NCBI GenBank assembly: GCA_021292105.1
Contig: CM037865.1
Location: 72,033,356 to 72,097,355, forward strand
DNA from: Anadara kagoshimensis
Lineage: Eukaryota; Mollusca; Bivalvia; Arcoida; Arcidae
DNA: 64,000 nucleotides
Direction: 5' to 3'
Shown here piece after piece: positions 22,313 through 51,674 of this stretch. Made by a program: the position numbers and the translations under genes. The notes below the pieces were generated by a model. It had not been told where the DNA came from, searched no databases, and saw nothing but the letters and a program-made list of their open reading frames with translations. Each line of letters opens with the position of its first letter. The stretch's first letter is position 1.

Positions 22313-22444
22313 TCAGACAAAGTTTTCGTCTGTATTTGTACATATTAGGAAGGAATCCATTAACTTTGGCTGTATTAGCTGTTGATAATCCACGTCCGTT
22401 ATATCGTTTGGTCTATACAGTGATATAATCTTCCTCAAAGCAGC
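22313..22444 (-). CDS. INSC: INSC exon 13, C-terminus
   Basis: Acceptor TTGTTTCAG. Encodes AALRKIISLYRPND, YQQLIQPKLMDSFLICT and NTDENFV, then TGA. The vertebrate tail EESFV is a PDZ-type ligand. Here position -2 is Asn rather than Ser, so the ligand class is less clear. Confidence 0.95.
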   Translation of the reverse strand, partial: AALRKIISLYRPNDITDVDYQQLIQPKLMDSFLICTNTDENFV

Positions 22445-25400
22445 CTGAAACAAAAGTGTTATATAATAAATAAATATTACACCTGATGACCTTAAATGAT
22501 TGTTACATGCGTGAATTATCCAATTTCATAACAAAAAGGAAAAATAACTTCTCATCTTATAATTCAAGTTATAGAAATTTTCAACAAAAAATCAACAATT
22601 TAACAAATAATATAGCTGTAGCAAGTTAAAAAAGCATTGCTATTGCATAGGAATTAAGATATCTCTGGCATCCTCCATAACGAGATGACATCACTTGAGC
22701 CAATCCATTCATGCAAATGTAACAGAAAGGAGAATTGAATTATATACACAAACATTTATGTGTACATGTATGGTACATGTGTATATTCAGATTTATTTGT
22801 TTACTGGAAATCTATATTGTAGAAAGGAGGTCTTTCTGAAAGAACAAGGATGTAGTTTTCACTATTCCATCTGTTTGAAGTTTTCACAAGAACCATTTCA
22901 ACTGTACCAGTACTTCATGCATAATTCATGCAATTAAAATAAAATTTCTTTCTTTACCCCTGAACCTGTCTAATATAAGGTGGTCAGATTATCAAGAGGA
23001 TGTGTGTTATATGATAGTCATTGCATGGCTTTATTATGTGGATTTTGTTGGTGATTATACAATATAAGTTAATACATACCAAACAAGCCACTAATACAGC
23101 ATCACTTTTATTTCTTTCCTTTGTATTTTTACATAACTGTACCAATCTAGGTACACCTGTTAAACAAAAAATACATGGGCATCATCACTAACGAGTCAAA
23201 ACATTCATGAATAAGGGTGACAATGTCCTGGATTTGTTCATTCAACTTTGGGCATGATCACTTTAATAAGGGGAAACTACTCCTGTATTTTGTTTAGTTA
23301 CAGATACTGTACTTCCTTTTAGTCAGACGATCTGATCTTACCAGTATGAAAAAAGAATTTGTTCATCATGCAGAGTTAGATTTTTCTAACCAACGTGATT
23401 GATACTTTCATTCATCTCCTGCCATTGTAAATCCCCAAAGGATTTTAAAAAAGCGCTGCATTTTTTTCTGACCAAGATGGTATGTAATTTGTGTTCAGTA
23501 ATTACAAAAAATGTACAACTGTACATAACATGATACAAAATTTATTGATTTTCATATCTAAAAGCTTGAAAAACTGGTGCTATGTCAGGCATGAATTAAA
23601 CAGCAGACTAACCTTGAAATTCAGTAATGGTCTGGGCCGTTTCAACATCTCTACATATTCTTGTAAGAGCAATGGCTGCTTTTTGTTGTATTCTTTCACA
23701 AGCTGCTAACTCTGTTGGTTTTTTATAGTTTGCTGGGTGTTCTTCAAGAAGACCCAGACAGGCTTCTATCCCATTATTCTCTATAACTCCCACTCTACAG
23801 CTATCAGCGGCCACCATATTGGCAAGAATCGTGGCAACCTGTAAAATTTTATTTTGCAGATTAATTAATTAATTCTCATTACATCTGGAGTTTTTCCCTA
23901 CTTCAAAGGTATTTGTTGTTACAGGTAGTAAGGATGTACAAATTTCGATAAAAATCAACTTTATTTTCATTGTTCCACCCTATTTTTTTTCCCAGTAGTT
24001 GATTCAGCACACCTGATTTATGTATCCACAGTAATCCTGAATTTAATTATTGCATGTGTTTTCAATTTATTGTTTGATTGAACAGGGTCCTAGTCAAGAA
24101 TATTTTACTTATATCAAAGAGATTACCAGCAATTGGTGGTGTCAGAAGTGCAATTGGGTTCAATTTTATGCAAGAAATGTCATTGAAAAGACTTTATTTG
24201 GATCTAACAATGACCCAAACTAACACTATAAAACCACTTACCTGATCTTTAACAAAGAGACTATCTGCTATCTGAGTACCACAGGACTGTATGAGGATTC
24301 TAGGTGTAATACTGTAAAGCCATTTACCTCATCTTTAACAAAGAGACTATCTGCTATCTGAGTACCACAGGACTGTATGAGGATTCTAGGTGTAATACTG
24401 TAAAGCCATTTACCTCATCTTTAACAAAGAGACTATCTGCTATCTGAGTACCACAGGACTGTATGAGGATTCTAGGTGTAACACTGTAAAGCCACTTACC
24501 TGATCTTTAACAAAGAGACTATCTGCTATCTGAGTACCACAGGACTGTATGAGAATTCTAGGTGTAACACTATAAACCACCTTACCTGATCTTTAACAAA
24601 GAGACTATCTGCTATCTGAGTACCACAGGACTGTATGAGAATTCTAGGTGTAACACTGTAAAGCCTCTTACCTGATCTTTAACAAAGAGACTATCTGCTG
24701 TCTGAGTACCACAGGACTGTATGAGGATTCTAGGTGTAATACTGTAAAGCCATTTACCTGATCTTTAACAAAGAGACTATCTGCTATCTGAGTACCACAG
24801 GACTGTATGAGGATTCTAGGTGTAACACTGTAAAGCCACTTACCTGATCTTTAACAAAGAGACTATCAGCTATCTGAGTACCACAGGGCTGTATGAGGAT
24901 TCTAGGTGTAACACTGTAAAGCCACTTACCTGATCTATAACAAAGAGACTATCTGCTGTCTGAGTACCACAGGACTGTATGAGAATTCTAGGTGTAATAC
25001 TGTAAAGCCACTTACCTGGTCTTTAACAAAGAGACTATCTGCTGTCTGAGTACCACAGGACTGTATGAGGATTCTAGGTGTAATACTGTAAAGCCATTTA
25101 CCTGATCTTTAACAAAGAGACTATCTGCTATCTGAGTACCACAGGACTGTATGAGGATTCTAGGTGTAACACTGTAAAGCCTCTTACCTGATCTTTAACA
25201 AAGAGACTATCTGCTGTCTGAGTACCACAGGACTGTATGAGAATTCTAGGTGTAATACTGTAAAGCCTCTTACCTGATCTTTAACAAAGAGACTATCTGC
25301 TGTCTGAGTACCACAGGACTGTATGAGGATTCTAGGTGTAACACTGTAAAGCCACTTACCTGATCTTTAACAAAGAGACTATCAGCTATCTGAGTACCAC

Positions 25401-28400
25401 AGGACTGTATGAGAATTCTAGGTGTAACACTGTAAAGCCATTTACCTGATCTTTAACAAAGAGACTATCTGCTATCTGAGTACCACAGGACTGTATGAGA
25501 ATTCTAGGTGTAATACTGTAAAGCCACTTACCTGGTCTTTAACAAAGAGACTATCTGCTGTCTGAGTACCACAGGACTGTATGAGAATTCTAGGTGTAAT
25601 ACTGTAAAGCCACTTACCTGATCTTTAACAAAGAGACTATCTGCTGTCTGAGTACCACAGGACTGTATGAGAATTCTAGGTGTAATACTGTAAAGCCTAC
25701 TACCTGATCTTTAACAAAGAGACTATCTGCTATCTGAGTACCACAGAACTGTATGAGGATTCTAGGTGTAACACTGTAAAGCCTACTACCTGATCTTTAA
25801 CAAAGAGACTATCTGCTATCTGAGTACCACAGGACTGTATGAGAATTCTAGGTGTAAACACTGTAAAGCCTCTTACCTGGTCTTTAACAAAGAGACTATC
25901 TGCTGTCTGAGTACCACAGGACTGTATGAGGATTCTAGGTGTAACACTGTAAACCACCTTACCTGATCTTTAACAAAGAGACTATCTGCTATCTGAGTAC
26001 CACAGAACTGTATGAGGATTCTAGGTGTAACACTGTAAAGCCTACTACCTGATCTTTAACAAAGAGACTATCTGCTATCTGAGTACCACAGGACTGTATG
26101 AGAATTCTAGGTGTAACACTGTAAAGCCTCTTACCTGGTCTTTAACAAAGAGACTATCTGCTATCTGAGTACCACAGGACTGTATGAGGATTCTAGGTGT
26201 AACACTGTAAAGCCTCTTACCTGATCTTTAACAAAGAGACTATCTGCTGTCTGAGTACCACAGGACTGTATGAGAATTCTAGGTGTAACACTGTAAACCA
26301 CCTTACCTGATCTTTAACAAAGAGACTATCTGCTGTCTGAGTACCACAGGACTGTATGAGAATTCTAGGTGTAATACTGTAAAGCCTCTTACCCGATCTT
26401 TAACAAAGAGACTATCTGCTATCTGAGTACCACAGAACTGTATGAGGATTCTAGGTGTAATACTGTAAAGCCACTTACCTGGTCTTTAACAAAGAGACTA
26501 TCTGCTGTCTGAGTACCACAGGACTGTATGAGAATTCTAGGTGTAATACTGTAAAGCCACTTACCTGATCTTTAACAAAGAGACTATCTGCTATCTGAGT
26601 ACCACAGGACTGTATGAGAATTCTAGGTGTAATACTGTAAAGCCATTTACCTGATCTTTAACAAAGAGACTATCTGCTGTCTGAGTACCACAGAACTGTA
26701 TGAGGATTCTAGGTGTAACACTGTAAAGCCTACTACCTGATCTTTAACAAAGAGACTATCTGCTATCTGAGTACCACAGGACTGTATGAGAATTCTAGGT
26801 GTAATACTGTAAAGCCTCTTACCTGATCTTTAACAAAGAGACTATCTGCTGTCTGAGTACCACAGGACTGTATGAGAATTCTAGGTGTAACACTGTAAAG
26901 CCACTTACCTGATCTTTAACAAAGAGACTATCTGCTATCTGAGTACCACAGGACTGTATGAGAATTCTAGGTGTAACACTGTAAAGCCACTTACCTGATC
27001 TATAACAAAGAGACTATCTGCTGTCTGAGTACCACAGGACTGTATGAGAATTCTAGGTGTAATACTGTAAAGCCACTTACCTGATCTTTAACAAAGAGAC
27101 TATCTGCTATCTGAGTACCACAGGACTGTATGAGAATTCTAGGTGTAACACTGTAAAGCCACTTACCTGATCTTTAACAAAGAGACTATCTGCTATCTGA
27201 GTACCACAGGACTGTATGAGAATTCTAGGTGTAACACTGTAAAGCCTCTTACCTGGTCTTTAACAAAGAGACTATCTGCTATCTGAGTACCACAGGACTG
27301 TATGAGAATTCTAGGTGTAATACTGTAAAGCCTACTACCTGATCTTTAACAAAGAGACTATCAGCTATCTGAGTACCACAGGACTGTATGAGAATTCTAG
27401 GTGTAATACTGTAAAGCCACTTACCTGATCTTTAACAAAGAGACTATCTGCTATCTGAGTACCACAGGACTGTATGAGAATTCTAGGTGTAATACTGTAA
27501 AGCCTACTACCTGATCTTTAACAAAGAGACTATCAGCTATCTGAGTACCACAGGACTGTATGAGAATTCTAGGTGTAATACTGTAAAGCCACTTACCTGA
27601 TCTTTAACAAAGAGACTATCTGCTATCTGAGTACCACAGGACTGTATGAGAATTCTAGGTGTAACACTGTAAAGCCTACTACCTGATCTTTAACAAAGAG
27701 ACTATCAGCTATCTGAGTACCACAGGACTGTATGAGAATTCTAGGTGTAACACTGTAAAGCCTACTACCTGATCTTTAACAAAGAGACTATCTGCTATCT
27801 GAGTACCACAGGACTGTATGAGAATTCTAGGTGTAATACTGTAAAGCCTCTTACCTGATCTTTAACAAAGAGACTATCTGCTATCTGAGTACCACAGGAC
27901 TGTATGAGAATTCTAGGTGTAACACTGTAAAGCCTACTACCTGATCTTTAACAAAGAGACTATCTGCTATCTGAGTACCACAGGACTGTATGAGAATTCT
28001 AGGTGTAACACTGTAAAGCCACTTACCTGGTCTTTAACAAAGAGACTATCTGCTATCTGAGTACCACAGGACTGTATGGGGACTCTAGGTGTAACACTGT
28101 AAAGCCTCTTACCTGATCTTTAACAAAGAGACTATCTGCTATCTGAGTACCACAGGACTGTATGAGAATTCTAGGTGTAACACTATAAAACCACTTACCT
28201 GATCTTTAACAAAGAGACTATCTGCTATCTGAGTACCACAGGACTGTATGAGAATTCTAGGTGTAACACTGTAAAGCCACTTACCTGATCTTTAACAAAG
28301 AGACTATCTGCTATCTGAGTACCACAGAACTGTATAAGAATTCTAGGTGTAATACTGTAAAGCCTCTTACCTGATCTTTAACAAAGAGACTATCTGCTAT

Positions 28401-31400
28401 CTGAGTACCACAGGACTGTATGAGAATTCTAGGTGTAACACTGTAAAGCCTCTTACCTGGTCTTTAACAAAGAGACTATCTGCTGTCTGAGTACCACAGG
28501 ACTGTATGAGAATTCTAGGTGTAACACTGTAAAGCCTACTACCTGATCTTTAACAAAGAGACTATCTGCTATCTGAGTACCACAGGACTGTATGAGGATT
28601 CTAGGTGTAACACTGTAAAGCCTACTACCTGATCTTTAACAAAGAGACTATCAGCTATCTGAGTACCACAGGACTGTATGAGGATTCTAGGTGTAACACT
28701 GTAAAGCCACTTACCTGATCTTTAACAAAGAGACTATCTGCTGTCTGAGTACCACAGGACTGTATGAGAATTCTAGGTGTAACAATGTAAAGCCACTTAC
28801 CTGATCTTTAACAAAGAGACTATCTGCTGTCTGAGTACCACAGGACTGTATGAGAATTCTAGGTGTAACAATGTAAAGCCACTTACCTGATCTTTAACAA
28901 AGAGACTATCTGCTGTCTGAGTACCACAGGACTGTATGAGAATTCTAGGTGTAACAATGTAAAGCCACTTACCTGATCTTTAACAAAGAGACTATCTGCT
29001 GTCTGAGTACCACAGGACTGTATGAGAATTCTAGGTGTAACACTGTAAAGCCTCTTACCTGGTCTTTAACAAAGAGACTATCTGCTGTCTGAGTACCACA
29101 GGACTGTATGAGAATTCTAGGTGTAACACTGTAAAGCCTACTACCTGATCTTTAACAAAGAGACTATCTGCTATCTGAGTACCACAGGACTGTATGAGGA
29201 TTCTAGGTGTAACACTGTAAAGCCTACTACCTGATCTTTAACAAAGAGACTATCAGCTATCTGAGTACCACAGGACTGTATGAGGATTCTAGGTGTAACA
29301 CTGTAAAGCCACTTACCTGATCTTTAACAAAGAGACTATCTGCTGTCTGAGTACCACAGGACTGTATGAGAATTCTAGGTGTAACAATGTAAAGCCACTT
29401 ACCTGATCTTTAACAAAGAGACTATCTGCTGTCTGAGTACCACAGGACTGTATGAGAATTCTAGGTGTAACAATGTAAAGCCACTTACCTGATCTTTAAC
29501 AAAGAGACTATCTGCTGTCTGAGTACCACAGGACTGTATGAGAATTCTAGGTGTAACAATGTAAAGCCACTTACCTGATCTTTAACAAAGAGACTATCTG
29601 CTGTCTGAGTACCACAGGACTGTATGAGAATTCTAGGTGTAACACTGTAAAGCCACTTACCTGATCTTTAACAAAGAGACTATCTGCTGTCTGAGTACCA
29701 CAGGACTGTATGAGAATTCTAGGTGTAACAATGTAAAGCCACTTACCTGATCTTTAACAAAGAGACTATCTGCTGTCTGAGTACCACAGGACTGTATGAG
29801 AATTCTAGGTGTAACAATGTAAAGCCACTTACCTGATCTTTAACAAAGAGACTATCTGCTGTCTGAGTACCACAGGACTGTATGAGAATTCTAGGTGTAA
29901 CACTGTAAAGCCACTTACCTGATCTTTAACAAAGAGACTATCAGCTATCTGAGTACCACAGGACTGTATGAGAATTCTAGGTGTAACACTGTAAAGCCAC
30001 TTACCTGATCTTTAACAAAGAGACTATCTGCTATCTGAGTACCACAGGACTGTATGGGGACTCTAGGTGTAATACTGTAAAGCCACTTACCTGATCTTTA
30101 ACAAAGAGACTATCTGCTATCTGAGTACCACAGGACTGTATGAGAATTCTAGGTGTAACACTGTAAAGCCACTTACCTGGTCTTTAACAAAGAGACTATC
30201 TGCTATCTGAGTACCACAGGACTGTATGAGAATTCTAGGTGTAATACTGTAAAGCCACTTACCTGGTCTTTAACAAAGAGACTATCTGCTATCTGAGTAC
30301 CACAGGACTGTATGAGAATTCTAGGTGTAATACTGTAAAGCCACTTACCTGATCTTTAACAAAGAGACTATCTGCTATCTGAGTACCACAGGACTGTATG
30401 AGAATTCTAGGTGTAATACTGTAAAGCCACTTACCTGGTCTTTAACAAAGAGACTATCTGCTATCTGAGTACCACAGGACTGTATGAGAATTCTAGGTGT
30501 AACACTGTAAAGCCACTTACCTGGTCTTTAACAAAGAGACTATCTGCTATCTGAGTACCACAGGACTGTATGAGAATTCTAGGTGTAACACTGTAAAGCC
30601 ACTTACCTGATCTTTAACAAAGAGACTATCAGCTATCTGAGTACCACAGGACTGTATGAGAATTCTAGGTGTAACACTATAAAGCCTACTACCTGATCTT
30701 TAACAAAGAGACTATCTGCTATCTGAGTACCACAGGACTGTATGAGGATTCTAGGTGTAACACTGTAAAGCCACTTACCTGATCTTTAACAAAGAGACTA
30801 TCAGCTATCTGAGTACCACAGGACTGTATGAGAATTCTAGGTGTAACACTATAAAGCCTACTACCTGATCTTTAACAAAGAGACTATCTGCTATCTGAGT
30901 ACCACAGGACTGTATGAGAATTCTAGGTGTAATACTGTAAAGCCACTTACCTGATCTTTAACAAAGAGACTATCTGCTGTCTGAGTACCACAGGACTGTA
31001 TGAGAATTCTAGGTGTAACACTGTAAAGCCTCTTACCTGATCTTTAACAAAGAGACTATCTGCTATCTGAGTACCACAGGACTGTATGAGAATTCTAGGT
31101 GTAATACTGTAAAGCCTACTACCTGATCTTTAACAAAGAGACTATCTGCTATCTGAGTACCACAGGACTGTATGAGAATTCTAGGTGTAATACTGTAAAG
31201 CCTACTACCTGATCTTTAACAAAGAGACTATCTGCTGTCTGAGTACCACAGGACTGTATGAGAATTCTAGGTGTAACACTGTAAAGCCTCTTACCTGGTC
31301 TTTAACAAAGAGACTATCTGCTATCTGAGTACCACAGGACTGTATGAGAATTCTAGGTGTAATACTGTAAAGCCTCTTACCTGATCTTTAACAAAGAGAC

Positions 31401-34400
31401 TATCTGCTATCTGAGTACCACAGGACTGTATGAGAATTCTAGGTGTAATACTGTAAAGCCACTTACCTGGTCTTTAACAAAGAGACTATCTGCTATCTGA
31501 GTACCACAGGACTGTATGAGAATTCTAGGTGTAACACTGTAAAGCCACTTACCTGATCTTTAACAAAGAGACTATCAGCTATCTGAGTACCACAGGACTG
31601 TATGAGAATTCTAGGTGTAATACTGTAAAGCCTACTACCTGATCTTTAACAAAGAGACTATCTGCTATCTGAGTACCACAGGACTGTATGAGAATTCTAG
31701 GTGTAATACTGTAAAGCCTCTTACCTGATCTTTAACAAAGAGACTATCTGCTATCTGAGTACCACAGGACTGTATGAGAATTCTAGGTGTAATACTGTAA
31801 AGCCACTTACCTGGTCTTTAACAAAGAGACTATCTGCTATCTGAGTACCACAGGACTGTATGAGAATTCTAGGTGTAACACTGTAAAGCCTCTTACCTGA
31901 TCTTTAACAAAGAGACTATCTGCTATCTGAGTACCACAGGACTGTATGAGAATTCTAGGTGTAACACTGTAAAGCCTCTTACCTGATCTTTAACAAAGAG
32001 ACTATCTGCTATCTGAGTACCACAGGACTGTATGAGAATTCTAGGTGTAATACTGTAAAGCCTCTTACCTGATCTTTAACAAAGAGACTATCTGCTATCT
32101 GAGTACCACAGGACTGTATGAGAATTCTAGGTGTAATACTGTAAAGCCACTTACCTGGTCTTTAACAAAGAGACTATCTGCTATCTGAGTACCACAGGAC
32201 TGTATGAGAATTCTAGGTGTAACACTGTAAAGCCTCTTACCTGATCTTTAACAAAGAGACTATCTGCTATCTGAGTACCACAGGACTGTATGAGAATTCT
32301 AGGTGTAACACTGTAAAGCCTCTTACCTGGTCTTTAACAAAGAGACTATCTGCTGTCTGAGTACCACAGGACTGTATGAGAATTCTAGGTGTAATACTGT
32401 AAAGCCACTTACCTGGTCTTTAACAAAGAGACTATCTGCTATCTGAGTACCACAGGACTGTATGAGAATTCTAGGTGTAATACTGTAAAGCCACTTACCT
32501 GATCTTTAACAAAGAGACTATCTGCTATCTGAGTACCACAGGACTGTATGGGGACTCTAGGTGTAACACTGTAAAGCCTACTACCTGATCTTTAACAAAG
32601 AGACTATCTGCTGTCTGAGTACCACAGAACTGTATAAGAATTCTAGGTGTAACACTGTAAAGCCACTTACCTGATCTTTAACAAAGAGACTATCTGCTAT
32701 CTGAGTACCACAGGACTGTATGAGAATTCTAGGTGTAATACTGTAAAGCCACTTACCTGGTCTTTAACAAAGAGACTATCTGCTATCTGAGTACCACAGG
32801 ACTGTATGAGAATTCTAGGTGTAACACTGTAAAGCCTACTACTTGATCTTTAACAAAGAGACTATCTGCTATCTGAGTACCACAGGACTGTATGAGAATT
32901 CTAGGTGTAACACTGTAAAGCCACTTACCTGATCTTTAACAAAGAGACTATCTGCTATCTGAGTACCACAGGACTGTATGAGAATTCTAGGTGTAACACT
33001 GTAAAGCCACTTACCTGATCTTTAACAAAGAGACTATCTGCTATCTGAGTACCACAGGACTGTATGAGAATTCTAGGTGTAACACTGTAAAGCCACTTAC
33101 CTGATCTTTAACAAAGAGACTATCTGCTATCTGAGTACCACAGGACTGTATGAGAATTCTAGGTGTAACACTGTAAAGCCACTTACCTGATCTTTAACAA
33201 AGAGACTATCTGCTATCTGAGTACCACAGAACTGTATGAGAATTCTAGGTGTAACACTGTAAAGCCACTTACCTGGTCTTTAACAAAGAGACTATCTGCT
33301 GTCTGAGTACCACAGAACTGTATGAGAATTCTAGGTGTAACACTGTAAAGCCTACTACCTGATCTTTAACAAAGAGACTATCTGCTGTCTGAGTACCACA
33401 GGACTGTATGAGAATTCTAGGTGTAACACTGTAAAGCCACTTACCTGATCTTTAACAAAGAGACTATCTGCTATCTGAGTACCACAGGACTGTATGAGAA
33501 TTCTAGGTGTAACACTGTAAAGCCACTTACCTGATCTTTAACAAAGAGACTATCTGCTATCTGAGTACCACAGAACTGTATGAGAATTCTAGGTGTAACA
33601 CTGTAAACCACCTTACCTGGTCTTTAACAAAGAGACTATCTGCTGTCTGAGTACCACAGAACTGTATGAGAATTCTAGGTGTAACACTGTAAAGCCACTT
33701 ACCTGGTCTTTAACAAAGAGACTATCTGCTGTCTGAGTACCACAGAACTGTATGAGAATTCTAGGTGTAACACTGTAAAGCCTACTACCTGATCTTTAAC
33801 AAAGAGACTATCTGCTGTCTGAGTACCACAGGACTGTATGAGAATTCTAGGTGTAACACTGTAAAGCCACTTACCTGATCTTTAACAAAGAGACTATCTG
33901 CTATCTGAGTACCACAGGACTGTATGAGAATTCTAGGTGTAACACTGTAAAGCCTACTACCTGATCTTTAACAAAGAGACTATCTGCTGTCTGAGTACCA
34001 CAGGACTGTATGAGAATTCTAGGTGTAACACTGTAAAGCCACTTACCTGATCTTTAACAAAGAGACTATCAGCTATCTGAGTACCACAGGACTGTATGAG
34101 AATTCTAGGTGTAATACTGTAAAGCCACTTACCTGGTCTTTAACAAAGAGACTATCTGCTATCTGAGTACCACAGGACTGTATGAGAATTCTAGGTGTAA
34201 TACTGTAAAGCCACTTACCTGGTCTTTAACAAAGAGACTATCTGCTATCTGAGTACCACAGGACTGTATGAGAATTCTAGGTGTAATACTGTAAAGCCAC
34301 TTACCTGATCTTTAACAAAGAGACTATCTGCTGTCTGAGTACCACAGGACTGTATGAGGATTCTAGGTGTAACACTGTAAAGCCTACTACCTGATCTTTA

Positions 34401-37400
34401 ACAAAGAGACTATCTGCTATCTGAGTACCACAGAACTGTATGAGAATTCTAGGTGTAACACTGTAAACCACCTTACCTGGTCTTTAACAAAGAGACTATC
34501 TGCTATCTGAGTACCACAGGACTGTATGAGAATTCTAGGTGTAACACTGTAAAGCCTACTACCTGATCTTTAACAAAGAGACTATCTGCTGTCTGAGTAC
34601 CACAGGACTGTATGAGAATTCTAGGTGTAACACTGTAAAGCCACTTACCTGGTCTTTAACAAAGAGACTATCTGCTGTCTGAGTACCACAGGACTGTATG
34701 AGAATTCTAGGTGTAACACTGTAAAGCCACTTACCTGGTCTTTAACAAAGAGACTATCTGCTATCTGAGTACCACAGGACTGTATGAGAATTCTAGGTGT
34801 AATACTGTAAAGCCATTTACCTGATCTTTAACAAAGAGACTATCTGCTATCTGAGTACCACAGGACTGTATGAGAATTCTAGGTGTAACACTGTAAAGCC
34901 TCTTACCTGGTCTTTAACAAAGAGACTATCTGCTGTCTGAGTACCACAGGACTGTATGAGAATTCTAGGTGTAACACTGTAAAGCCACTTACCTGGTCTT
35001 TAACAAAGAGACTATCTGCTGTCTGAGTACCACAGGACTGTATGAGAATTCTAGGTGTAATACTGTAAAGCCATTTACCTGATCTTTAACAAAGAGACTA
35101 TCTGCTATCTGAGTACCACAGGACTGTATGAGAATTCTAGGTGTAACACTGTAAAGCCTCTTACCTGGTCTTTAACAAAGAGACTATCTGCTGTCTGAGT
35201 ACCACAGGACTGTATGAGAATTCTAGGTGTAATACTGTAAAGCCTCTTACCTGGTCTTTAACAAAGAGACTATCTGCTATCTGAGTACCACAGGACTGTA
35301 TGAGAATTCTAGGTGTAATACTGTAAAGCCTCTTACCTGATCTTTAACAAAGAGACTATCAGCTATCTGAGTACCACAGGACTGTATGAGAATTCTAGGT
35401 GTAACACTGTAAAGCCTCTTACCTGATCTTTAACAAAGAGACTATCTGCTGTCTGAGTACCACAGGACTGTATGAGAATTCTAGGTGTAACACTGTAAAG
35501 CCTCTTACCTGGTCTTTAACAAAGAGACTATCTGCTGTCTGAGTACCACAGGACTGTATGAGAATTCTAGGTGTAACACTGTAAAGCCTCTTACCTGGTC
35601 TTTAACAAAGAGACTATCTGCTGTCTGAGTACCACAGGACTGTATGAGAATTCTAGGTGTAACACTGTAAAGCCTCTTACCTGGTCTTTAACAAAGAGAC
35701 TATCTGCTGTCTGAGTACCACAGGACTGTATGAGAATTCTAGGTGTAACACTGTAAAGCCACTTACCTGATCTTTAACAAAGAGACTATCTGCTATCTGA
35801 GTACCACAGGACTGTATGAGGATTCTAGGTGTAACACTGTAAAGCCTACTACCTGATCTTTAACAAAGAGACTATCTGCTATCTGAGTACCACAGAACTG
35901 TATGAGAATTCTAGGTGTAACACTGTAAAGCCACTTACCTGATCTTTAACAAAGAGACTATCTGCTATCTGAGTACCACAGGACTGTATGAGAATTCTAG
36001 GTGTAATACTGTAAAGCCACTTACCTGGTCTTTAACAAAGAGACTATCTGCTATCTGAGTACCACAGAACTGTATGAGAATTCTAGGTGTAACACTGTAA
36101 AGCCACTTACCTGATCTTTAACAAAGAGACTATCTGCTATCTGAGTACCACAGGACTGTATGAGAATTCTAGGTGTAACACTGTAAAGCCTACTACCTGA
36201 TCTTTAACAAAGAGACTATCAGCTATCTGAGTACCACAGGACTGTATGAGGATTCTAGGTGTAACACTGTAAAGCCTACTACCTGATCTTTAACAAAGAG
36301 ACTATCTGCTATCTGAGTACCACAGAACTGTATGAGAATTCTAGGTGTAACACTGTAAAGCCACTTACCTGATCTTTAACAAAGAGACTATCTGCTATCT
36401 GAGTACCACAGGACTGTATGAGAATTCTAGGTGTAATACTGTAAAGCCTACTACCTGATCTTTAACAAAGAGACTATCTGCTATCTGAGTACCACAGAAC
36501 TGTATGAGAATTCTAGGTGTAACACTGTAAAGCCTACTACCTGATCTTTAACAAAGAGACTATCTGCTGTCTGAGTACCACAGGACTGTATGAGAATTCT
36601 AGGTGTAACACTGTAAAGCCTCTTACCTGATCTTTAACAAAGAGACTATCTGCTATCTGAGTACCACAGAACTGTATGAGAATTCTAGGTGTAACACTGT
36701 AAAGCCTCTTACCTGATCTTTAACAAAGAGACTATCTGCTATCTGAGTACCACAGGACTGTATGAGAATTCTAGGTGTAACACTGTAAAGCCTCTTACCT
36801 GGTCTTTAACAAAGAGACTATCTGCTGTCTGAGTACCACAGGACTGTATGAGAATTCTAGGTGTAACACTGTAAAGCCACTTACCTGGTCTTTAACAAAG
36901 AGACTATCTGCTGTCTGAGTACCACAGGACTGTATGAGAATTCTAGGTGTAACACTGTAAAGCCTCTTACCTGGTCTTTAACAAAGAGACTATCTGCTAT
37001 CTGAGTACCACAGGACTGTATGAGAATTCTAGGTGTAATACTGTAAAGCCTACTACCTGATCTTTAACAAAGAGACTATCTGCTATCTGAGTACCACAGG
37101 ACTGTATGAGGATTCTAGGTGTAACACTGTAAAGCCTCTTACCTGGTCTTTAACAAAGAGACTATCTGCTATCTGAGTACCACAGAACTGTATGAGGATT
37201 CTAGGTGTAATACTGTAAAGCCACTTACCTGATCTTTAACAAAGAGACTATCTGCTATCTGAGTACCACAGGACTGTATGAGGATTCTAGGTGTAACACT
37301 GTAAAGCCACTTACCTGATCTTTAACAAAGAGACTATCTGCTATCTGAGTACCACAGGACTGTATAAGAATTCTAGGTGCATCATACTGAAGAAGTATGT

Positions 37401-40400
37401 CACATGCTAGACTATCCATAAAGGTAATGTTAGCTATTGCTGCTGCTGCTAGCAGGAAAATCTCATGTGATCTAGTAGAATTACACAGACCTAAAACAGA
37501 ATCACTAAGCTTATAGAACCTTAATGGTAACCAGAGAAGCAAACAGTAATTTTTAGATTACTTATGAAACATTAATGGTCAACTGTGAAGTAAACAGTAT
37601 TTTTTGCAGGGAAATTATTTACTTATGAATTTTTGTTTTGCTTGAAAGGTGTGTTCTTAGTGAATTGTTGTCCTTTTTCAATGCAGCATTTTTAGACCAT
37701 ATTTGTGATCTGTAGATTTCTTATTATTATTTAACAGTTGAAAATGTAAAAACTAAAAAAAAATTAAAAAATTCAGGTAAAACCAAAAAGTTAAAGATAT
37801 TTTTAATTTTATGATTAGAGATTATTCATTTTTTCAAAGTCATTTTGATCCCTTTTCTCCATTTATTAGCCCATATTGGGATCTGTCCCTTTTTGTTGCA
37901 ATGATAGAGCAGCTTCTTGAGGTAAAATTTTCTACCAAATTTAAATAAATTTGATCCATCAATTCTTGAGAAGTACAGACAATGTGAAACACTAAATAGA
38001 TTAAAATATTAAATAATATTTGTTGAAGTATAATTACCTAATAGAGCTCTCAATATATCCTCCATGTTGTCAACTAGTCCAGATAGCTGCTGGAGATTTT
38101 CTAAACAAGGGGAGGTAACTTGTGCTATAACACCCGCTACTTCTCCCTTTACATTCTCTTTACATTTAACATCACATAAAATATCTGTTAGACAATCTAC
38201 ACCACCTTCCTGTATAATGAATAAAGGATACTGCATGAGTGAGTATGCAATTTTAGATTTATCCAACAAGTGTAATAAATTATTACAATAAACACAAATG
38301 TATGATTCTGTTTATTGCATAATACATGTATAAGAAAAGTGTTTGTATCTGTAAAGTGTTTTCTCGGGTATAACAGAACAGCCAAAATGGCATAAAGTAA
38401 CAAGTTATGTCGGGTATAACAGAACAGCCAAAATGGCATAAAGTAACAAGTTATGTCGGGTATAACAGAACAGCCAAAATGGCATAAAGTAACAAGTTAT
38501 GTCGGGTATAACAGAACAGCCAAAATGGCATAAAGTAACAAGTTATGTCGGGTATAACAGAACAGCCAAAATGGCATAAAGTAACAAGTTATGTCGGGTA
38601 TAACAGAACAGCCAAAATGGCATAAAGTAACAAGTTATGTCGGGTATAACAGAACAGCCAAAATGGCATAAAGTAACAAGTTATGTCGGGTATAACAGAA
38701 CAGCCAAAATGGCATAAAGTAACAAGTTATGTCGGGTATAACAGAACAGCCAAAATGGCATAAAGTAACAAGTTATGTCGGGTATAACAGAACAGCCAAA
38801 ATGGCATAAAGTAACAAGTTATGTCGGGTATAACAGAACAGCCAAAATGGCATAAAGTAACAAGTTATGTCGGGTATAACAGAACAGCCAAAATGGCATA
38901 AAGTAACAAGTTATGTCAATTAAAATATGTCATAATATGCTAAAATGATTGCATGATAAAATTGTGTGGATTTCGGCAGAAAGCATACAATAAAACTTAA
39001 GATTTTCTGATAATATTAGGAAAATCATGTGCGTATGACACTGGTAAACACTTATGTAGTCTAGTCTGTTAAGAATACATGCACCTAAATAATCCAAACA
39101 CTTAATGAAAGTGGTGTCCAAATTAGGGTTACTGGTAATAGTTCAATAGGTTGTAATGGAAATGCTCAATGTTTCTATCTTTTCTCCTGCTCATATTTTA
39201 ATGGTACCGTAAATCAACTTTTTTCAAAAATATTGCTTAGAAAACAGGAAATTTTTAGTGACACAATGTACATTTGTACCTTAACTACTGAAAGTATAAA
39301 TTAAGTCATAATACCTTGAATGTAAGAAAGAATAATTCCAAAGCCCTTTATTTACCTTTTCTATCTCAAATATGCTTTCAGCTACACAGCATATAGTAGC
39401 CAATGCTCTGAGTGCATGAGCATGTGCAAAACCTAAGCCACTCATTTTACATATGTCTAACAATGCTCGAACTCCACCTTCCTACAATGAATATAATTCA
39501 TACATAAAACTTTCCTGTAATGAGTTAATTGCATAAATATGAAATGTGTTACCTATATAACCGATTCATATTTAAAAGAAAGAATCAGTTCAATTTTGTT
39601 TGGCCACATCAGGTAATTATATACTCTGGTTCACAGACACAAATATTTAACTTTGATATTATTTCTCTGCCTTAGAAATGACCATTGTGTCATGACACAG
39701 AAATAAAATTATGGAAATCCCTTGAAATAATAATAATCCTAAAAATTAACTGTTGCAAAAATGTTCTAATGTTCTAGAATTATTTATGAATAATCGGTGA
39801 TTTCCCAATCCCAAAACAACATTTTTGCACAAGCAAATGAAACCTAGTTTCCCTTATATACAAAAATGCATATAATGTAACGCCACAAAGGATCCTAACT
39901 ATTGCAACCATGTCATATCATAGCAGAATTTTCCAAATTTTAAAGGCATAAGGTAGGTTTTTTTTAATGTAATAAAATCACTGATAATGCTAGGCAACTC
40001 AATGTGTATGTATATCTGTGTATTGTTTTAGTGTCTAATAAAACTTACCCTAGCAATAATATAACACATGTGTTCACCCTCCAATCCAAGACTGACAACA
40101 GTTCCAATGGATGTTGACAAACTAATGGGATTATTGGCATCATCAAGGGCTGTTATTACTTTCTGTAAATACAAGTAAAATATTCAATATGAATTTGGAA
40201 CCACAAATATTTTTAAAATACACTTATTCATGGCTATTTCCCTTCAAATATGCAACAAAATTTAGGATTACAAAGTTATCATTCCCAGGTTTATAAACTT
40301 AGTAGGGCTGCAGACACAGACGGTATATTTTCAACACTTTTTATCATGATAAAAAGATGATTAATATTACTGTGACCTTTAAGTTTAGCAAACTTTGTAA

Positions 40401-43400
40401 AACTTCATGCATTAATGCTACATATGTATAGGAAGTTTCAAGATTCAAAGTCTACCAGTTCATTAAAAGACTTTTTACGGAAACTGTGACCTTAAACGAA
40501 TGTTATGTTTAACAAGCCTTACAAAATTGCAAGGGAGGTGGATAGGGAACATTCTTCAAATTGCATTGCCATTGCTTTATTGGTTCTGTAAAGTTGTTTA
40601 AGTAAGAAAACTGACAAAGGACACTAGACAAATTGTGTTACAATGACTCATCTTGAACATTTGATGAGGTTAGGCAATATATTCAGATTTAAACAAATGG
40701 AATAAAATATATTTTACACATGTTAATTTTATTCTCTCCAAATGGCACACTATGAAATAAGTGTTCCAGCAATTTTCTAAGAATAAGACTACCTAAAGCT
40801 TATTTTATCATGTCATTAACAGTGAATATTTTATTCTAGTATTGCTTTGTGGTTTCTACCTTCGATTTTCCATCTTTCTATAATGACAAGATAAACAAAT
40901 TAAATTAATGTGTTTTATTCTAACAAGAAATTGTACTGTCAGAACAGAGAAAGAACTGAATTCTATCTTAATCATTAAACAGATTCCACTGTTCTTACAA
41001 TCAGAATTGTCAAACAAGGATCTGCAATCAGATTTCAACCTTGTCATCGACAGGAAGTGTGATACCTGTTCATTCAGATAACTTTATACATTGAAAAACT
41101 TACCTGTACCAGAAATCCCAAGGCAAGGTCTACTAAACGACTGAAAGACTGACCAAGGAATGTCAACTGATTAACAACTGGAATCTTCAATGGAGTCTTA
41201 TTATCAGCAAGGACACTAAAAAGAGAATGAATTATTAATAAATCTCTGTGCATGCAGGTATTTTTGTCTTTCTTTGAGTAAAATGTTTACATGAACATGT
41301 GATTATATATAGGCACATTTGTGGTTTTATAGTTCATAGCTAAACAGGAAAGTTAACCTTCCAGAGCACCCAGCCTCACTTCACTGGTGGAAGTTGACTT
41401 GTTAAACTTAATTTGCAAATTTTCAAACCTTTCACTTTGTTTTTTTATTGGACTGTGATTTGAACATGAACTGGTATGTTTGTATCTGAATCTTGCTATG
41501 TAAGTTTAATATACATGTACTATATTTTCTATTTGCGCCTTGCACTTCCAAGGTAAAACACCCAATCCTCCTTCAGTACAAATGTAGGGTCAATCTCTTG
41601 ATCCTGCCGTACATGTCGTACATTTTATTTCATCACTTCAATAATAATACTGATAAAATTTATGCAAGATCTTGCGTTAGAAATTATGTAATATTGGTTT
41701 TATAACCTCAATATAATGTTAGATTCTGGTTATTATATAATTTGAGAAAAGTAGATTTTTCTGTAAAGTGATTTCTCAAGTGTAACAGAATGGCTAAAAT
41801 GGTTGGAAAAACACAAGTCACAATGACTAAAATATGACGTCATAATATGTTACAACATTCATATGACATCATTAACCAAAGATACATGAGGTATATTACA
41901 CACGTGTAATATTATTTTTATTACATGACTTTGGTGTACGGATTTAGAGGTGTTAATAAGTATTAATATGTAATGTGATCTCCGAGCCTTTTTTATACTA
42001 GGTAAAAACTGATGTCTGTATGTAAATGTATGGTACCAGAATTTCTATAATAAAAAATATTCAAATATGATCTGAATTTATGATTGTGTCAATTCATGAA
42101 ATTATGTGAAACTAAATATTATGTGAAATAAGAGTACAATATAATCTACACGTATACAGTTAGTGTTAGATTATTACCTTTCAACATGCTGGGCAAGTTT
42201 AGCACATTCTCCCATTACAACTTCTTGTTGCTGAAATTAAAATGAGTAATCAGAAATATATAGATAATTGACCTATATACATGTATATATGACGATTAGA
42301 AAAAAAGCTGTAATTATATGAAATACAACATGAAATACAACATGTATATATTATATATTGCTTTAACACTTTATGTAGGTCATGTTAATTAAATCCTATA
42401 GACAAGTACAATTAGTTTAAAGATATTTCAGCAGAAAATTGAATAGTTATCAAAGACTAATTTCAGATAAATAGAATCTTACACAGTAACAATGCAAGAC
42501 AGAGAATGAATATTTTTCTGACCAGAATGAGCTTTAGCATGTTGTGGTCATTGAAAATATTAATCTGAGTTTGTGATATCTCCGTCTTACTGTGTTACTG
42601 GTGTATGATTCTTTTTCTCACTCATGTACAACATACAAAGATGATTTGTAAACAAAGATTTGCATCAAATGTTCCATTTTAATGCCACTCTCTGTGTCTT
42701 ATTGTAATTATGTAATTAACTTTTGTTGCTGTTTTAATGAGTAAACAATTATGGCATCATCAGTTAACCATGTGTAAGTGATTGTGACACTGGGAAATTT
42801 GTTGGTTGGAAAAAAAAAGTTTTTCAAGTCACAGGTGTGAGAAACATGTATCTCACATCACCAAGTGACCGTTAGTGATGTCATAATAAAATGACAATCA
42901 CATGACATCATTCTGTTAGGAGCATGATGTCATCTTGCAGGAAAATGACACCTGAGTCTCCAAATTTAGAAATTTACAACATGTTTCAATTGTCAGTTCT
43001 GGTAATTTAGAGTGATTGACTTTGTATTGTAATTTATACATGTTGTATAAACCAAAATTAGGTACATTCTTTCTGATGGTCATATTTATCTGAATGTATG
43101 TAGAATGTTGAATAACAAAGTTAGATTTTACAAACATGGCATCAATGTCTGTGTAAATCACATTTGAATCCAAAAATTGACATTAAAATGGAAGAAAAAG
43201 AATGGATTTTTATATTCTAGATCATTCCATTAGAATAAGAACAATAACGACAAAACAGAAACCAGAGGTCTATGGACCTTAGACCGCTCACCTACATTGC
43301 GGAAATTAGAATTATAATGAAAATATCTTAACAAGATCAGCCAGGTTCACAAACTTGGTGAACATGCTGCTATATAGTTTCAAGCTTCTAAGTATTTCAG

Positions 43401-43777
43401 CTCACGACAAGACAATGTTTGAGGGTTTTAATTCTTCAGGTCACAAGGTCAACCAGCTTTAAAAAAACAGTAAACATTTATGCCTTGATGTTTCAAGTTC
43501 CCTGACCTTTCTGTTCACGGGAAGATGTTTAAATGTTTTACTACTTTAGGTCACTGTGACCTTGAATGTTGGTTCAATAATCATCAAAAACTTGTTAGAG
43601 CTTTATAATTTATTATGCAGGTGCTATAAATTTAGATGATACATGATGTATGTAACTTAACATGTGGTTTAATGTATCATGACTCTACATTAAAAGACAT
43701 GACTTGATGGTGTCACTTTTTTCAGATTTTAGACGAAAATATACATTTGTAATTTTTTCTCTCCAAAAATAATGTAC

Positions 43778-43817
<40 letters not shown>

Positions 43818-46800
43818 TGTGTCAACGAGTAATCAAGAACCTGAGTACTGGATCAGAAAACTGATACTCAATTCTAAATTTGGTACTCCAGTACTTACTG
43901 ATATCGAGTCTATGTGAACTATTTGTTTTTTCAAATACATGTACTTGTAAACATAGTAAACACACTGTTTTGTTTATTGTCAATTATTATGTTATCAAAA
44001 TTCATTCATAGCATATATAATTAAACAATTAATTAGCATGAAATATACTTATCGAACAGGTGAATCTTGGTTGATTACAACACATTTGACAATAAAAGCT
44101 AATCTATGACAAATGAAGACCCGGCTATTCATTCATTGAACAATCTATTATGATCAGCATGTCTACTGTACAAAGCCATGTTATGTTGACATATTTATTT
44201 CACTGTAAACATTTTCAGATTCATCAACACAACTTTTTGTCAACCTAACATAATGAATATTCTTGCTTTAATATAACTAAGTTTTGATTGGATTATTCGC
44301 ATATACATATATATTATATATATATTGTGACAGACTTTGTATCTTGTGCAACTCCGGTCAAATTGAAAACAAAATTCACTTCCTGCTTCACTGTTCTCTT
44401 TATTCTCCTTTAAGAAATGTTTTGTTTACCAATGCTAACCTGAACTTAAGTACAACAACACTGGATGATAATGACATTCTTGCTTACATAATTAAAAACT
44501 TTCCGAGACAATCACCTAAATTCATTTTATCAGCATTTAATTTCATAAAGAAACTATTTCCAAGCCACGCATGTAATATTGAAATATATATATATTTAAA
44601 GTGACTTATAGGTCCATTGGGCCGGGTGTATCATACATTGGTTTCTATGTAATGTAACTTAATGTTATTGGTATATATTATACACATGTCACTCTAATAA
44701 AATAATTACTTTCTTACTTACCTATACCAGTAATCAAATTTGTATAGATGTGTGGTTTAACTATATACATGTACAGTCCAACCTGCCTTAAAGACCACCT
44801 CTATATAGGGACCACCTGATTATAAAGACCAGTAGAATTGTATCCCAATTGTTCTTTATTCATATTATTTGAACCTCTATAACGGTCACCTGTCCATAAA
44901 GGCCAAATTTACTAGTTCCCTTGGGTGGCCTTTATAGATAGGTTTGACAGTACTTATAAAACTGGTAGCACACATGTTTATCAAATTTGTCTTCATGTTG
45001 TCTTTTATGTTATTTATGTTTCTATTCCTGGTAGCCAAAATCCCCACTAGCTACAAATTTCTGAGAAATATTTCAAAAGTAACCTACCAGGTATTTTAGC
45101 AAATTTGTGAAACATAGCAGCACTTTAGTGCTGATCTACAATGAAATTGCAACAGATATTTTCCATTCACATTCATTTCCAGGGTGTCTTTTTCTGACAT
45201 GCACTTATTTCATGGTGAGGGAGACTTTCGGCAAAATCTAAGTGACAGCAATGTAATGTCTACATTGCACTTTAGTGGCGTAGCGCGAAAGGAATGAATG
45301 TGCAAGCCTGGTGCAAAATCCAGTCATAGTCGCATCCTTGCTAAGTTGCTACATGGGCATGCTAACACCCACCCCCCAATTTTTTTTTTTAAAAAATGGA
45401 GCAATTTATTGCATTTTTTAGCATTCTAAATCACTATTTACACGGGTAAAAAAGGTTTAAATTTGTCTTTTTGTCACGAGTCTTTCGGACGAGACATTAA
45501 AACTGATGCCCATCTCACAATGGGTGTTGCAACCTTAAAGAACCTTGATTGCACATTGCCCAGAGTGCACTGTGAATGTCAAAATTCTGTTACTTCACCT
45601 ACAGCTGGTGAGGTCTTCATAGCCATTACAAGTGAAATAATCTTCACTTGGACTTAAAATCTCATTCAGTCAATAAATCTTGCTCTCTGATGTAATGTGT
45701 TAAGCAACACCTCTATTGATAAAGATGTAGACATTTCTACCATGTACTAGGTCTATGGATTATGGGTTACCCTTTAGCTCATTCAGAATAATGTCCCGCT
45801 TAACAAGAAGTTAAGCAACCTTGAGCGTGGTCTACACCTGGATGTGTGATCATGGTTTCAACAGCCCAAACAACCAGTCCACTTTCTATAATCCTATTTT
45901 ATTCTGTTCGGAATCATATAGGGCCTCAGATTAAAACTTAATTCACCTAATTGGGAAACTGAAGTTGTTTACCCAAGCTGAAGATGCCATAAAAAGTTAT
46001 GGTTTAATGCTTTCATCACTCATATCTTCAGGAGTAATTTGAGCTGGATCTGGGTATTTGAGCTCACATGTATCCCAGGAAAATGTATACAGCTTATCAT
46101 CTGAGTTAGACCAACACATAGGCTTATAACTACTAGACTTGGAACGAGACGAAATTTTCTGTTTAAGACTCTTAAAGTTTGAAAAAAAATCATTATTTTA
46201 TTTTCCCAATATTTTATATTTTATTTTCATTTGTAAATAATGACAGACTGAATTAGTTTTTATTTTTTTTATCAAAAAATTATGTTCAAGCACAGGATTA
46301 TTGGTGTATACGCATGCTACGCCACTGCATTTTGATGTACAATACAACTTTCAAAAGGACCATATTTATGCAAACTTTTTAAATTTGGCTGCTAACAATT
46401 TAAAAATTGTTGAAACCTAGGTTATGATAACTTACCTCTAGTATATAGGATGGCGAGTTGGTAATAATCTGGTTACACTCATGTATAAGTGATCTGATAT
46501 GACAGGTTATCTGAAGTGTGTATGGTCTCACATTCTTCCATTTTTCTGATTCCAAAAATCTGAAAAATAAGAAATAAATAAATAAATATTTATTTTACTA
46601 CACTGTGTGTTGTGTTGAACATAACCTAATGCCAATAACCCCATTTTGTTTATTTATTTATTTATTTTTTTTTTTAATTTCCAAGTCAATTAAATTAACT
46701 CTAATTGTAAGACCACCATGAATTTTCTCTTGGATCAGTCCAGAATTTTGTATAAAATGCAAATTACTGAGAAATAAATGGCCACTTAAATGATTAACTG

Positions 46801-49826: not shown

Positions 49827-51674
49827 GGGTGCAAGACGTTTCGTCCCATAGGACTTTTCGTCCCATGCCATTTCGTACCATATTCAGGACTTTTCGTCCC
49901 ATACTCGTAAGACGTTTCGTACCATAGGACTTTTCGTCCCATGATATTTCGTAACATTTTCAGGACTTTTCGTTCCATAATTTTAAGATTAACCATAACA
50001 TTTCGTAGCTTGTCCTTGGTTTTTCGTACCGTTACATTCGTTTTAACGTTTATCTTGGTGTTATTGTGCGATTTTTAATGGAAATTTGACGATGCATTAT
50101 TTAGTTTATTTAAAGTGTTCAATAATTTTCCCATGTCCGTGAAACAAAAATGTGAGTTGTTCGATTCTATGTGTGTTTCAATACTTTGTTATGCATCAGA
50201 AATTTGAGGCTTCCACAAATCTGAAAATATTGATATTATTCATAATAAATTTTGCAGAAATGTTCTTAATGTAAACCAACGCCTGTTGATGCAATGCTTG
50301 GCGAACTGGGTCGTTATCCTATGTTTATTAAACGACAAGAACGTATTATTAAATATTAGTTTAAAATTTTACAAAACCATGATAGTATAATTTTTAAGAT
50401 TTATAGTGTATTATTGTTTGATGCTAACAATGGTAAAATGAACTGGGTGTATAATGTAAAAAATCTTATATGTAGTCTCGGATTTCCAGAATTTTGGAAT
50501 TGTCAAAACCCAAATTTGGATTAGTGTGGAATTAATATACAACGTTTACATGACCAGTACATTGAACACTGGCATTATTCTATTAGTACCAAATCACAGT
50601 TATTGTTATACCAAAATGTTAAACGTAATTTTAAATTTGAATCGTATTTAGACTTATTGTGTATAGACCATTCTTCTTTAATAGCACAACTTAGATGTGG
50701 GTCTTTAAAATTATCTATAGAATCGGGTAGATACCCAATATTCCGAGAGAGCAGAGAATTTGTAGATGCTGCAACATGAACTTTTTAGAAGACGAATATC
50801 ATTCTATACTCATATGTCCACTATATCAAGAAATAAGGAAACAGTTTTTACCAAAATATTATAATCATTGGCCTAGTATATATAAACTTTATAATCTTAT
50901 TATTTGTAATTCAGAGTCTCTTATTTTAAAATTATCAAAGTATTTATTTCATGCATTTAAATTAAGACAAAATTATATTCAACAGTTTAATTAAGTATAA
51001 CACACTGTACCTAATATATGTATTTGAGGTTAATTGTATTCTGTCGCTATCTTGCTACAAGTTGTTAATACTTTATGCAAATAAACTATTATTGCTATAT
51101 TTACATATACAATACCCTTTTCATAAGATTTATTTGAAGTATGTCTCTTTTGATGCCCGTGCTTCTTTGTGTTTGTAGAACGTTCCCTGTGAAATGACTA
51201 TCCCAATATTTTGCATCTTAACCCACGCTGCTTAACAAACATACCGAACAACAAAAGCTTGTGGAAAAATGGTTTGTTTTCATTTTTCATGAAAAAAAAA
51301 AAATAATAATCAGTATTCCCGATCAGTGTTATCTGTTTATGGCTTTAAAGTTTATTCAACTTCACTTAATATGAAAATAATTAAATTTTATTAAAAAAAA
51401 ATAATAAAATAAAATAAATATCTCCAAGCTGTGTTTGACTTAATATAAAAATAATTAAATTTTATTCACAAAATAATAATAATAATAAAACAAAAAACAA
51501 ATGAATAAATAATATTTATTTATCTCTTTTAGATAATATAACAATGTTACGAAATGTCTTGGGACGAAAAGTCCTATGGTACGAAACGTCTTACAAATAT
51601 GGGACGAAAAGTCCTGAATATGGTACGAAATGGCATGGGACGAAAAGTCCTATGGGACGAAACGTCTGTAATCC
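49827..51674. mobile_element. Foldback-type element with long inverted repeats and 8-bp target duplication
   Basis: The left arm (49834 to about 49985) and right arm (51541-51667) are near-perfect inverted copies built of sub-repeats such as GGGACGAAAAGTCCTATGG and GGGACGAAACGTC. The termini GGGTGCAAGACG and CGTCTGTAATCC pair partially. The flanks carry TTTTCCAT at 49819-49826 and 51675-51682. The interior holds a decayed LINE piece (50110-51000) and AT-rich sequence. No transposase is visible, so the element is non-autonomous. It separates the INSC and SVIP 5' ends. Confidence 0.85.
50110..51000 (+). pseudogene. Decayed LINE ORF2 C-terminus inside the foldback element
   Basis: Reads in broken frames: MSVKQKCELFDSMCVSILCY, then after a frameshift MLGELGRYPMFIKRQERIIK, later RCGSLKLSIESGRYP, and DEYHSILICPLYQEIRKQFL. 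This follows the order of invertebrate LINE RT C-terminal regions. Several stops and at least two frameshifts are present. Confidence 0.7.

Follow-up and report, generated by a model that had tools for sequence, protein, structure and literature searches.

INSC of the bivalve Anadara kagoshimensis carries, at the 3' end of its exon 10, a long tandem array made of copies of that exon end. Within the window considered here, a stretch of 64,000 nucleotides (nt) of contig CM037865.1, the array consists of 153 head-to-tail units of 86 bp, each containing the last 65 nt of the exon, its 5' splice site (donor) and the first 21 nt of the following intron. The real donor is followed by 152 decoy donors in the same intron. 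The array is probably an exon-end minisatellite which is tolerated because exon definition would direct splicing to the first donor. Two points go beyond the preliminary description of this DNA, which was made from its letters alone: the genome holds a recurrent class of such arrays, of which that in INSC is one, and there is a known human counterpart of small size.

Anatomy of the array and its host gene

The array was called by Tandem Repeats Finder (TRF) with a period of 86, 153 copies and a 96% match between them, and a unit-by-unit split likewise gives 153 units, a single one of which measures 87 bp (Table 1). Together they bear out the position, the 86-bp unit, the 65 + 21 split and the roughly 152 decoys of the preliminary description, and the decoys lie in the sense orientation of the gene, on the (-) strand, as had been claimed. 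Head-to-tail, homogenised and near-identical units are shared with minisatellite and satellite DNA, while the unit differs from these in being an exon-intron junction within a gene. It spans an exon 3' end together with its donor, as in a boundary variable number tandem repeat (VNTR), and the donor GT is intact in all 153 units.

Table 1. Features of INSC, its array and the window, followed by verified exon ends elsewhere in the genome that run into donor arrays (exon + intron part of the unit, copies, match); a slash marks a splice joint.
Feature	Position	Strand	Details
INSC gene in window	22313..48034	(-)	12 coding exons, ending ENFV*
INSC exons with exact ends, first five	48034-47874, 47484-47421, 41215-41104, 40162-40049, 39481-39356	(-)	
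INSC exons with exact ends, other five	38209-38038, 37490-37315, 23838-23613, 23156-23080, 22444-22313	(-)	
Two INSC exons	near 46.5 and 42.2 kb	(-)	protein match only
Array-bearing INSC exon (exon 10)	37315..37490	(-)	176 nt, end ...SLFVKDQ/; tblastn to mollusc INSC, splice-consistent ends
Next INSC exon (VATILANM...)	23613..23838	(-)	acceptor TTTTACAG/GTTGCC; Insc_C E 1.5e-15
Tandem array in INSC	24221..37379	(-)	153 head-to-tail 86-bp units = 65 exon nt + 21 intron nt
Array unit 1 = genuine exon end	37379-37294	(-)	exon 37379-37315 (65 nt) + intron 37314-37294 (21 nt)
Real 5' splice site CAG/GTAAGT	37309..37317	(-)	U1 duplex -13.3 kcal/mol
In-frame stop on read-through of real donor, after VSGFTVLHLESSYSPVVLR	37257-37255	(-)	58 nt beyond last exon base, ahead of decoy 1
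152 decoy 5' splice sites	24236..37231	(-)	one per unit, 86-nt spacing (one spacing of 87)
Last decoy donor	CAG 24244-24242, GT 24241-24240	(-)	
SVIP exon (small VCP/p97-interacting protein)	53528-53737		Pfam E 1e-9
37-bp x 34 array	58734-59991	(+)	moderate donor AGG/GTAAGC, -8.9 kcal/mol
L032, cytoplasmic dynein 1 heavy chain (DYNC1H1)			91 + 11 nt, 6 copies; PDB match 4.5e-20, residues 2-62 of 62
L033, PNPLA6/7-type cyclic-nucleotide-binding exon			80 + 16 nt, 62 copies; Pfam 3.1e-11, 1-57 of 58
L034, NOA1			31 + 13 nt, about 68 copies; 5.8e-15, 1-44 of 44
L040, monocarboxylate transporter (SLC16)			61 + 9 nt, about 46 copies to end of fetched stretch; 1.8e-4, 2-49 of 49
L041, RGS7			63 + 12 nt, 8 copies; 3.5e-10, 1-33 of 33
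L043, secretogranin V/7B2 (SCG5)			37 + 23 nt, 12 copies; Pfam 1e-11, 1-34 of 35

In a profile search of the genome the array-bearing exon matches Insc_C with an E-value of 4.3e-15, and when joined to the next exon the pair reaches 6.8e-37 against the same family (PF19427). The ten exactly bounded exons, once joined, give a frame that stays open through to ENFV and its stop codon. The coding joint made from the first donor, KDQ/VATILANM, is of a motif type (KDQ/VATxLAN) present in 130 of 140 collected homologues, with several of the ten that lack it being short fragments or oddly modelled. By this homology the first array unit is the exon end, and the earlier assignment of the gene to INSC, together with the proposed end of exon 10, is borne out.

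Whole-genome searches, which cover 1.115 Gb in 36 contigs, yielded eight scored candidates for Insc_C and six matches, all six of them inside the INSC gene of the window; no second INSC copy able to substitute was found in this search. Since the ten exons are open and the genome holds no other Insc_C match, a working INSC requires use of the first donor. A 452-amino-acid query composed of the ten exons, with the exons near 46.5 and 42.2 kb outside it, gave, among the 120 of 259 matches listed, best identities of 71% for a Logan contig and 68-69% for Pecten, Pinctada and Saccostrea.

The intron before the array exon measures 547 nt and the one beginning at the real donor 13,476 nt, of which 403 nt, from the coordinates, separate the last decoy donor from the next exon. 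With the array removed this intron would be about 0.4 kb, and the other INSC introns measure 389 to 1146 nt, except for one long gap which holds two unmodelled exons. Repetition of other INSC exon ends was not detected among the nine ends tested, that of the array exon included. Two introns upstream of the 86-bp array, INSC harbors a 46-bp unit repeated 12 times with a 100% match (38364-38917), which lacks a strong donor and represents a very recent expansion within the same gene.

There are 67 distinct sequences among the 153 units, at a mean distance of 2.5 of 86 positions from the consensus, and inter-unit distance rises only from 3.3 differences between neighbours to about 3.7 with separation. 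No higher-order repeats are present except one: among blocks of four or more identical units, an adjacent duplication of a 7-unit block is the sole repeat. These three properties suggest a mosaic kept alike by exchange as opposed to a copy-paste assembly error, and the hardly growing distance would be as expected for a homogenised neutral array. The variable exon-derived columns, 13 in number, fall on codon positions 1, 2 and 3 in the proportion 3/5/5; no codon-position bias is seen among the decoys and, because the columns spread in this way, the decoys appear to be free of coding constraint. That the array might be an assembly artefact, much shorter or absent in the animal, is highly improbable given the many distinct units in mosaic order with a single repeated block, and given INSC exons which flank the array in the correct order, even though long arrays are assembly-prone and paired stretches on a contig designated C2 (see below) suggest uncollapsed haplotypes or duplications.

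Choice among the donors

The decoys are real and strong sites. The donor nonamer CAGGTAAGT occurs in 73 of the 153 units (the real donor and 72 decoys), followed by CAGGTAAGA in 35 and CAGGTAGTA in 30, with the remaining 15 units divided between CAGGTAAAT (six), CAGGTAAGG (five), GAGGTAAAT (two), CAAGTAGTA (one) and CGGGTAAGA (one). Donor scoring, proposed as a check in the preliminary description, was carried out as predicted pairing with U1: against -13.3 kcal/mol for the real donor, 72 of 152 decoys reach -12.6 kcal/mol or lower, and 149 pair better than -7.15 kcal/mol, which is the median for a set of eight other donors of INSC that leaves out those of two further exons. The same description had called the donors near-identical and almost equal, a wording which is fair for about half, the 72 decoys that match CAG/GTAAGT exactly, and generous for the rest. 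As a chance control, none of 970 stretches of 86 nt, taken from both strands of the window parts outside the large arrays, contains a GT site as strong as that of the unit, and only seven reach -11 kcal/mol. Outside the array CAGGTAAGT has a single sense-strand occurrence in the window. Among the consensus units of five large arrays of the window a strong donor is found only in the 86-bp unit, the second strongest being that of the 37-bp unit.

Along the array, donors grow neither stronger nor weaker (Spearman 0.08, p 0.33). RNA structure is not predicted to mask the decoys specifically, as the unpaired probability of the real donor (0.27) lies inside the range of thirteen sampled decoys (0.15-0.67).

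The explanation preferred here starts from an 86-bp tandem duplication spanning the 3' end of the exon, comprising 65 exon and 21 intron nt, which unequal exchange and conversion would have expanded to 153 units; the intron would thereby have grown from about 0.4 kb to 13.5 kb. The exon would be recognised as a unit, with the first donor alone lying 176 nt from the genuine acceptor; being transcribed first, this donor would also be paired and committed first, and surplus U1 on the decoys would be discarded. At most a minor fraction would leak to decoy 1 or 2 and be lost as truncated mRNA. Judged from sequence, it is thus likely that the first donor is used and the array spliced out, with a small leak possible.

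Published work on competing donors lends support to this account. Carranza and colleagues report that, between near-equal donors, exon definition favours whichever site is closest across the exon, and intron definition whichever is closest across the intron (PMC9225289). In their minigenes with two identical CAG/guaagu donors and flanking introns of 365 nt, the upstream donor was used exclusively, alongside a preference for smaller exons (PMC9225289). Multiple occupancy of 5' splice sites by U1 is reported to occur with no loss of efficiency unless the sites are so close as to clash (PMC5389562). INSC fits the exon-definition case because its introns measure 547 nt on one side and no less than 403 nt on the other, both above 365 nt, while the exon measures 176 nt and each decoy would add 86 nt to it. 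The minigenes resemble INSC in that equal-strength CAG/GTAAGT donors compete behind one exon, and differ from it in having two artificial sites in transfected cells, in place of 153 natural ones (PMC9225289).

Several points weigh against exclusive use of the first donor. Under the classical intron-centred rule of Reed and Maniatis (cited in PMC9225289) the donor closest to the acceptor is favoured, which here would be the last decoy with its 403-nt intron. In the human database of the same study about 60% of all events favour the downstream donor, and the upstream donor leads, in 60%, only among near-equal donors (PMC9225289). Exclusive first-donor use comes from minigenes, and the mode of recognition in the host animal is an assumption. 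Furthermore, variable columns are more frequent in the donor of the unit (6 of 9) than in its remainder (15 of 77; hypergeometric p 0.006), in a post hoc test on adjacent changes that are not independent; the donor window ranks third of 86 windows by variable columns and ninth by the share of units changed. This excess could hint at selection against strong decoys.

A decoy may also be viewed as an acceptor fused to a donor with pyrimidines upstream, in which case the intron would be removed stepwise by recursive splicing, or wrongly spliced products would be re-spliced without a scar, with the end of the exon acting as the acceptor. The juxtaposed AG/GT invites this view, the unit-end AG being present in 151 of the 153 units. 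In an acceptor model built on the ten INSC acceptors only, the unit-end AG scores 3.04, above 97.4% of 535 background AGs, and outscores four of the ten real INSC acceptors when each is left out in turn; the other six outscore it. Three of the first six units (GACCAG type) score about 0, two of the 153 lack the AG and are not scorable, a purine-rich stretch lies directly before the AG and other AGs occur just upstream. Recursive use of a distal AG/GT has been reported at cassette exons, with lariats for 10 human exons (PMC10156609), and in Drosophila re-splicing occurs at regenerated sites upon loss of the exon junction complex (EJC), which normally blocks it (PMC8184009). The units thus share juxtaposed AG/GT and upstream pyrimidines with ratchet points and distal exonic recursive sites, and are set apart from these by an acceptor strength that is marginal, the likeness being one of sequence alone (PMC10156609). 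Taken together, recursive or corrective splicing is very unlikely. In the same ten-site model the best other AG of the unit, a candidate acceptor for a cryptic decoy exon at column 20, stands at the 79.6th percentile.

U1 is far more abundant than the nascent transcripts of one gene. This speaks against a further proposal, by which the array would serve as a platform for U1, either soaking it up, as the preliminary description suggested, or keeping premature polyadenylation out of the long intron. One transcript does contain about 150 U1 sites, of which half are perfect; the sense strand of the array contains no AATAAA or ATTAAA, so that the array has nothing to protect within itself, and five such signals occur in the 0.4 kb after it. 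A role of this kind is extremely improbable, and the suggestion of U1 soaking by the decoys fares poorly with it.

Sister arrays, known systems and possible tuning

Donor-bearing arrays recur elsewhere in the genome. A genome-wide pattern of three CAGGTRAGT motifs at regular spacing, with the reversed pattern as control, gave 675 + 584 matches against 74 + 138 for spacings of 51-81, and 506 + 544 against 143 + 128 for spacings of 82-112; the spacing within a match can be a multiple of a shorter period, and each long array yields many matches. For spacing 51-81, the matches listed in the first 70.8 Mb, comprising contig C1 and C2 as far as 18.97 Mb, form nine donor arrays against three control arrays, where the C1 matches at 41.400/41.407 Mb are counted as one array and two of the three control arrays are near-identical. 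The excess of donor arrays may merely mirror the abundance of real donors in any genome.

Two donor listings give at least 18 array places, 15 of which were fetched first (L032-L046) and two later. The frame running into the first donor was inspected in 14 of the 15, L042 running off its locus, and six of the 15 begin inside a homology-verified exon end (Table 1; the PNPLA label of L033 is one we presume). Another five (L035, L036, L038, L039 and L045) are exon-like, with acceptor, open frame and donor. L036, L038 and L045 have no homologues in Pfam, and neither these three nor L039 have any in NCBIfam; the peptides of L036 and L039 gave no match in PDB. Assignment of L039 to Actin was rejected, its sole Pfam match being at chance level (E 0.14). 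L037, L044 and L046 are doubtful as exons or not exonic. With three verified exon ends among the nine arrays of the first 70.8 Mb, the genome may contain, very roughly, some tens of such genes at spacing 51-81.

Selective neutrality, one of three options raised in the preliminary description, is the best supported of them, in view of the spread of variable columns over codon positions, the lack of a strength trend and the arrays at the exon ends of other genes, a cytoplasmic dynein heavy chain among them. The second option, a tuning of INSC level through non-productive splicing, has a possible precedent in human CBS. There, c.1444_1467+7(16_21) is a VNTR of 31 bp in 16-21 copies with single-base variants between units (PMC2630376), located at the boundary of exon 13 and intron 13 (PMC5188458). 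By its coordinates the CBS unit comprises the last 24 exon and first 7 intron bases, so each copy holds an exon end and a donor, as in INSC; it is far smaller than the INSC array in unit length and copy number, and concerns one human gene compared with at least seven genes in the Anadara genome. A second CBS variant, 844_845ins68, resembles INSC in that a junction (intron 7/exon 8) is duplicated, one site is strongly favoured and normal mRNA results (PMC2630376), and is unlike it as a single 68-bp duplication at the other exon end, where the more distal site is favoured. Internal tandem repeats of human segmental duplications likewise lie at exon-intron boundaries, alter gene structure and can yield introns, although they average 30-bp units x 4 with a total of 160 bp (PMC2812944). 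Among the titles and abstract openings searched, a weak test as most subscription papers lay outside the search, none concerned exon-end arrays so long or their recurrence as a class within a single genome. The architecture is already known from human CBS, and the size and the recurrence within one genome seem new.

Under such tuning a set share of INSC transcripts would use decoys, be truncated and decay, with the copy number of the array adjusting INSC output. The decoys are strong enough for this, and the in-frame stop on read-through precedes the first of them, so that any decoy use would truncate INSC with loss of its C-terminal part, which is what the preliminary description had proposed. 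More repeats in the CBS boundary VNTR are reported to decrease CBS activity (PMC5188458), on account of which tuning is to be regarded as a serious rival to the tolerated minisatellite. Copy number can also differ widely: the PNPLA6/7-type array has a second place, 0.81 Mb off, with 4.9 copies against 62, and the flanks and array ends of the two places are 97% identical over 2.4 and 1.7 kb. They are either separately assembled haplotypes or a recent duplication, and in both cases copy number has changed about twelve-fold against a 3% change of the flanks. On the other side, the minigene data predict near-exclusive first-donor use (PMC9225289), and the unit's read-through peptide of 60 amino acids, used as a protein query for the array in relatives and transcripts, gave no candidate for its conservation in what is a weak test. 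Truncation is, moreover, not common to the array class, because reading on meets no stop for 169 codons in DYNC1H1 and 139 in RGS7, and in the other four verified arrays meets one within 1-24 codons. On balance, tuning of INSC in this manner is unlikely.

In both DYNC1H1 and RGS7 the unit length is divisible by three, and decoy use in these two genes could add in-frame protein repeats. A wider version of the proposal, that exon-end minisatellites form a large class of tens of genes or more, essential ones included, which expand and contract fast and whose copy number acts as a heritable rheostat, is unlikely as well. If it were true, each added decoy would add a little non-productive or frame-keeping splicing and array length would tune output gene by gene.

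Paired array loci are found on C2 at distances of 0.6-0.8 Mb, at about 7.05/7.87, 7.34/8.16 and 11.65/12.25 Mb. The two fetched pairs, L033/L053 (the PNPLA6/7-type array) and L035/L054, align at about 97% and 88-94%, which suggests uncollapsed haplotypes or recent segmental duplication.

In an INSC model of the bivalve Dreissena polymorpha (P0019) an EHMCYVLSR-like segment recurs about ten times, in several cases as VSLGLEGEHMCYVLSR, whereas a second model of this species (P0035) reads ...VISLGLEGEHMCYVLSR/EGCIRAL with one occurrence only. The repeated segment corresponds to the end of another INSC exon than the array exon, with 'VS' being what a GTAAGT donor encodes. Judging from these protein models, a second bivalve may have acquired an exon-end array independently.

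Studies of how one of several equal 5' splice sites is chosen mostly use reporters with a few competing sites. The genes described here, namely DYNC1H1, NOA1, RGS7, SLC16, SCG5, the PNPLA6/7-type gene and INSC, place about 5 to over 150 donor copies behind one exon, providing natural tests of first-donor fidelity against spacing, exon length and copy number. They may inform the distinction between exon and intron definition, with their differing lengths as a built-in dose series. In addition, long arrays can evidently arise from coding exon ends and may mislead gene predictors.

Other features of the window

Two arrays, of 56 bp x 70 (5162-9070) and 31 bp x 12 (3468-3851), have no strong donor in either unit and lie near (+)-strand exons resembling homocysteine S-methyltransferase, with Pfam matches below the cut-off; the gene is provisionally labelled BHMT-like. 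Three similar terminal-exon-like frames follow one another in tandem (11865-12185, 14507-14872 and 16104-16529), the last of which has the sole, weak Pfam match among them, and they are possibly alternative last exons or copies of the BHMT-like gene. Inverted repeats at 49833-49979 and 51543-51667, 96.8% alike over 125 nt, about 1.8 kb from end to end and containing short subrepeats, are probably the ends of a non-autonomous DNA transposon.

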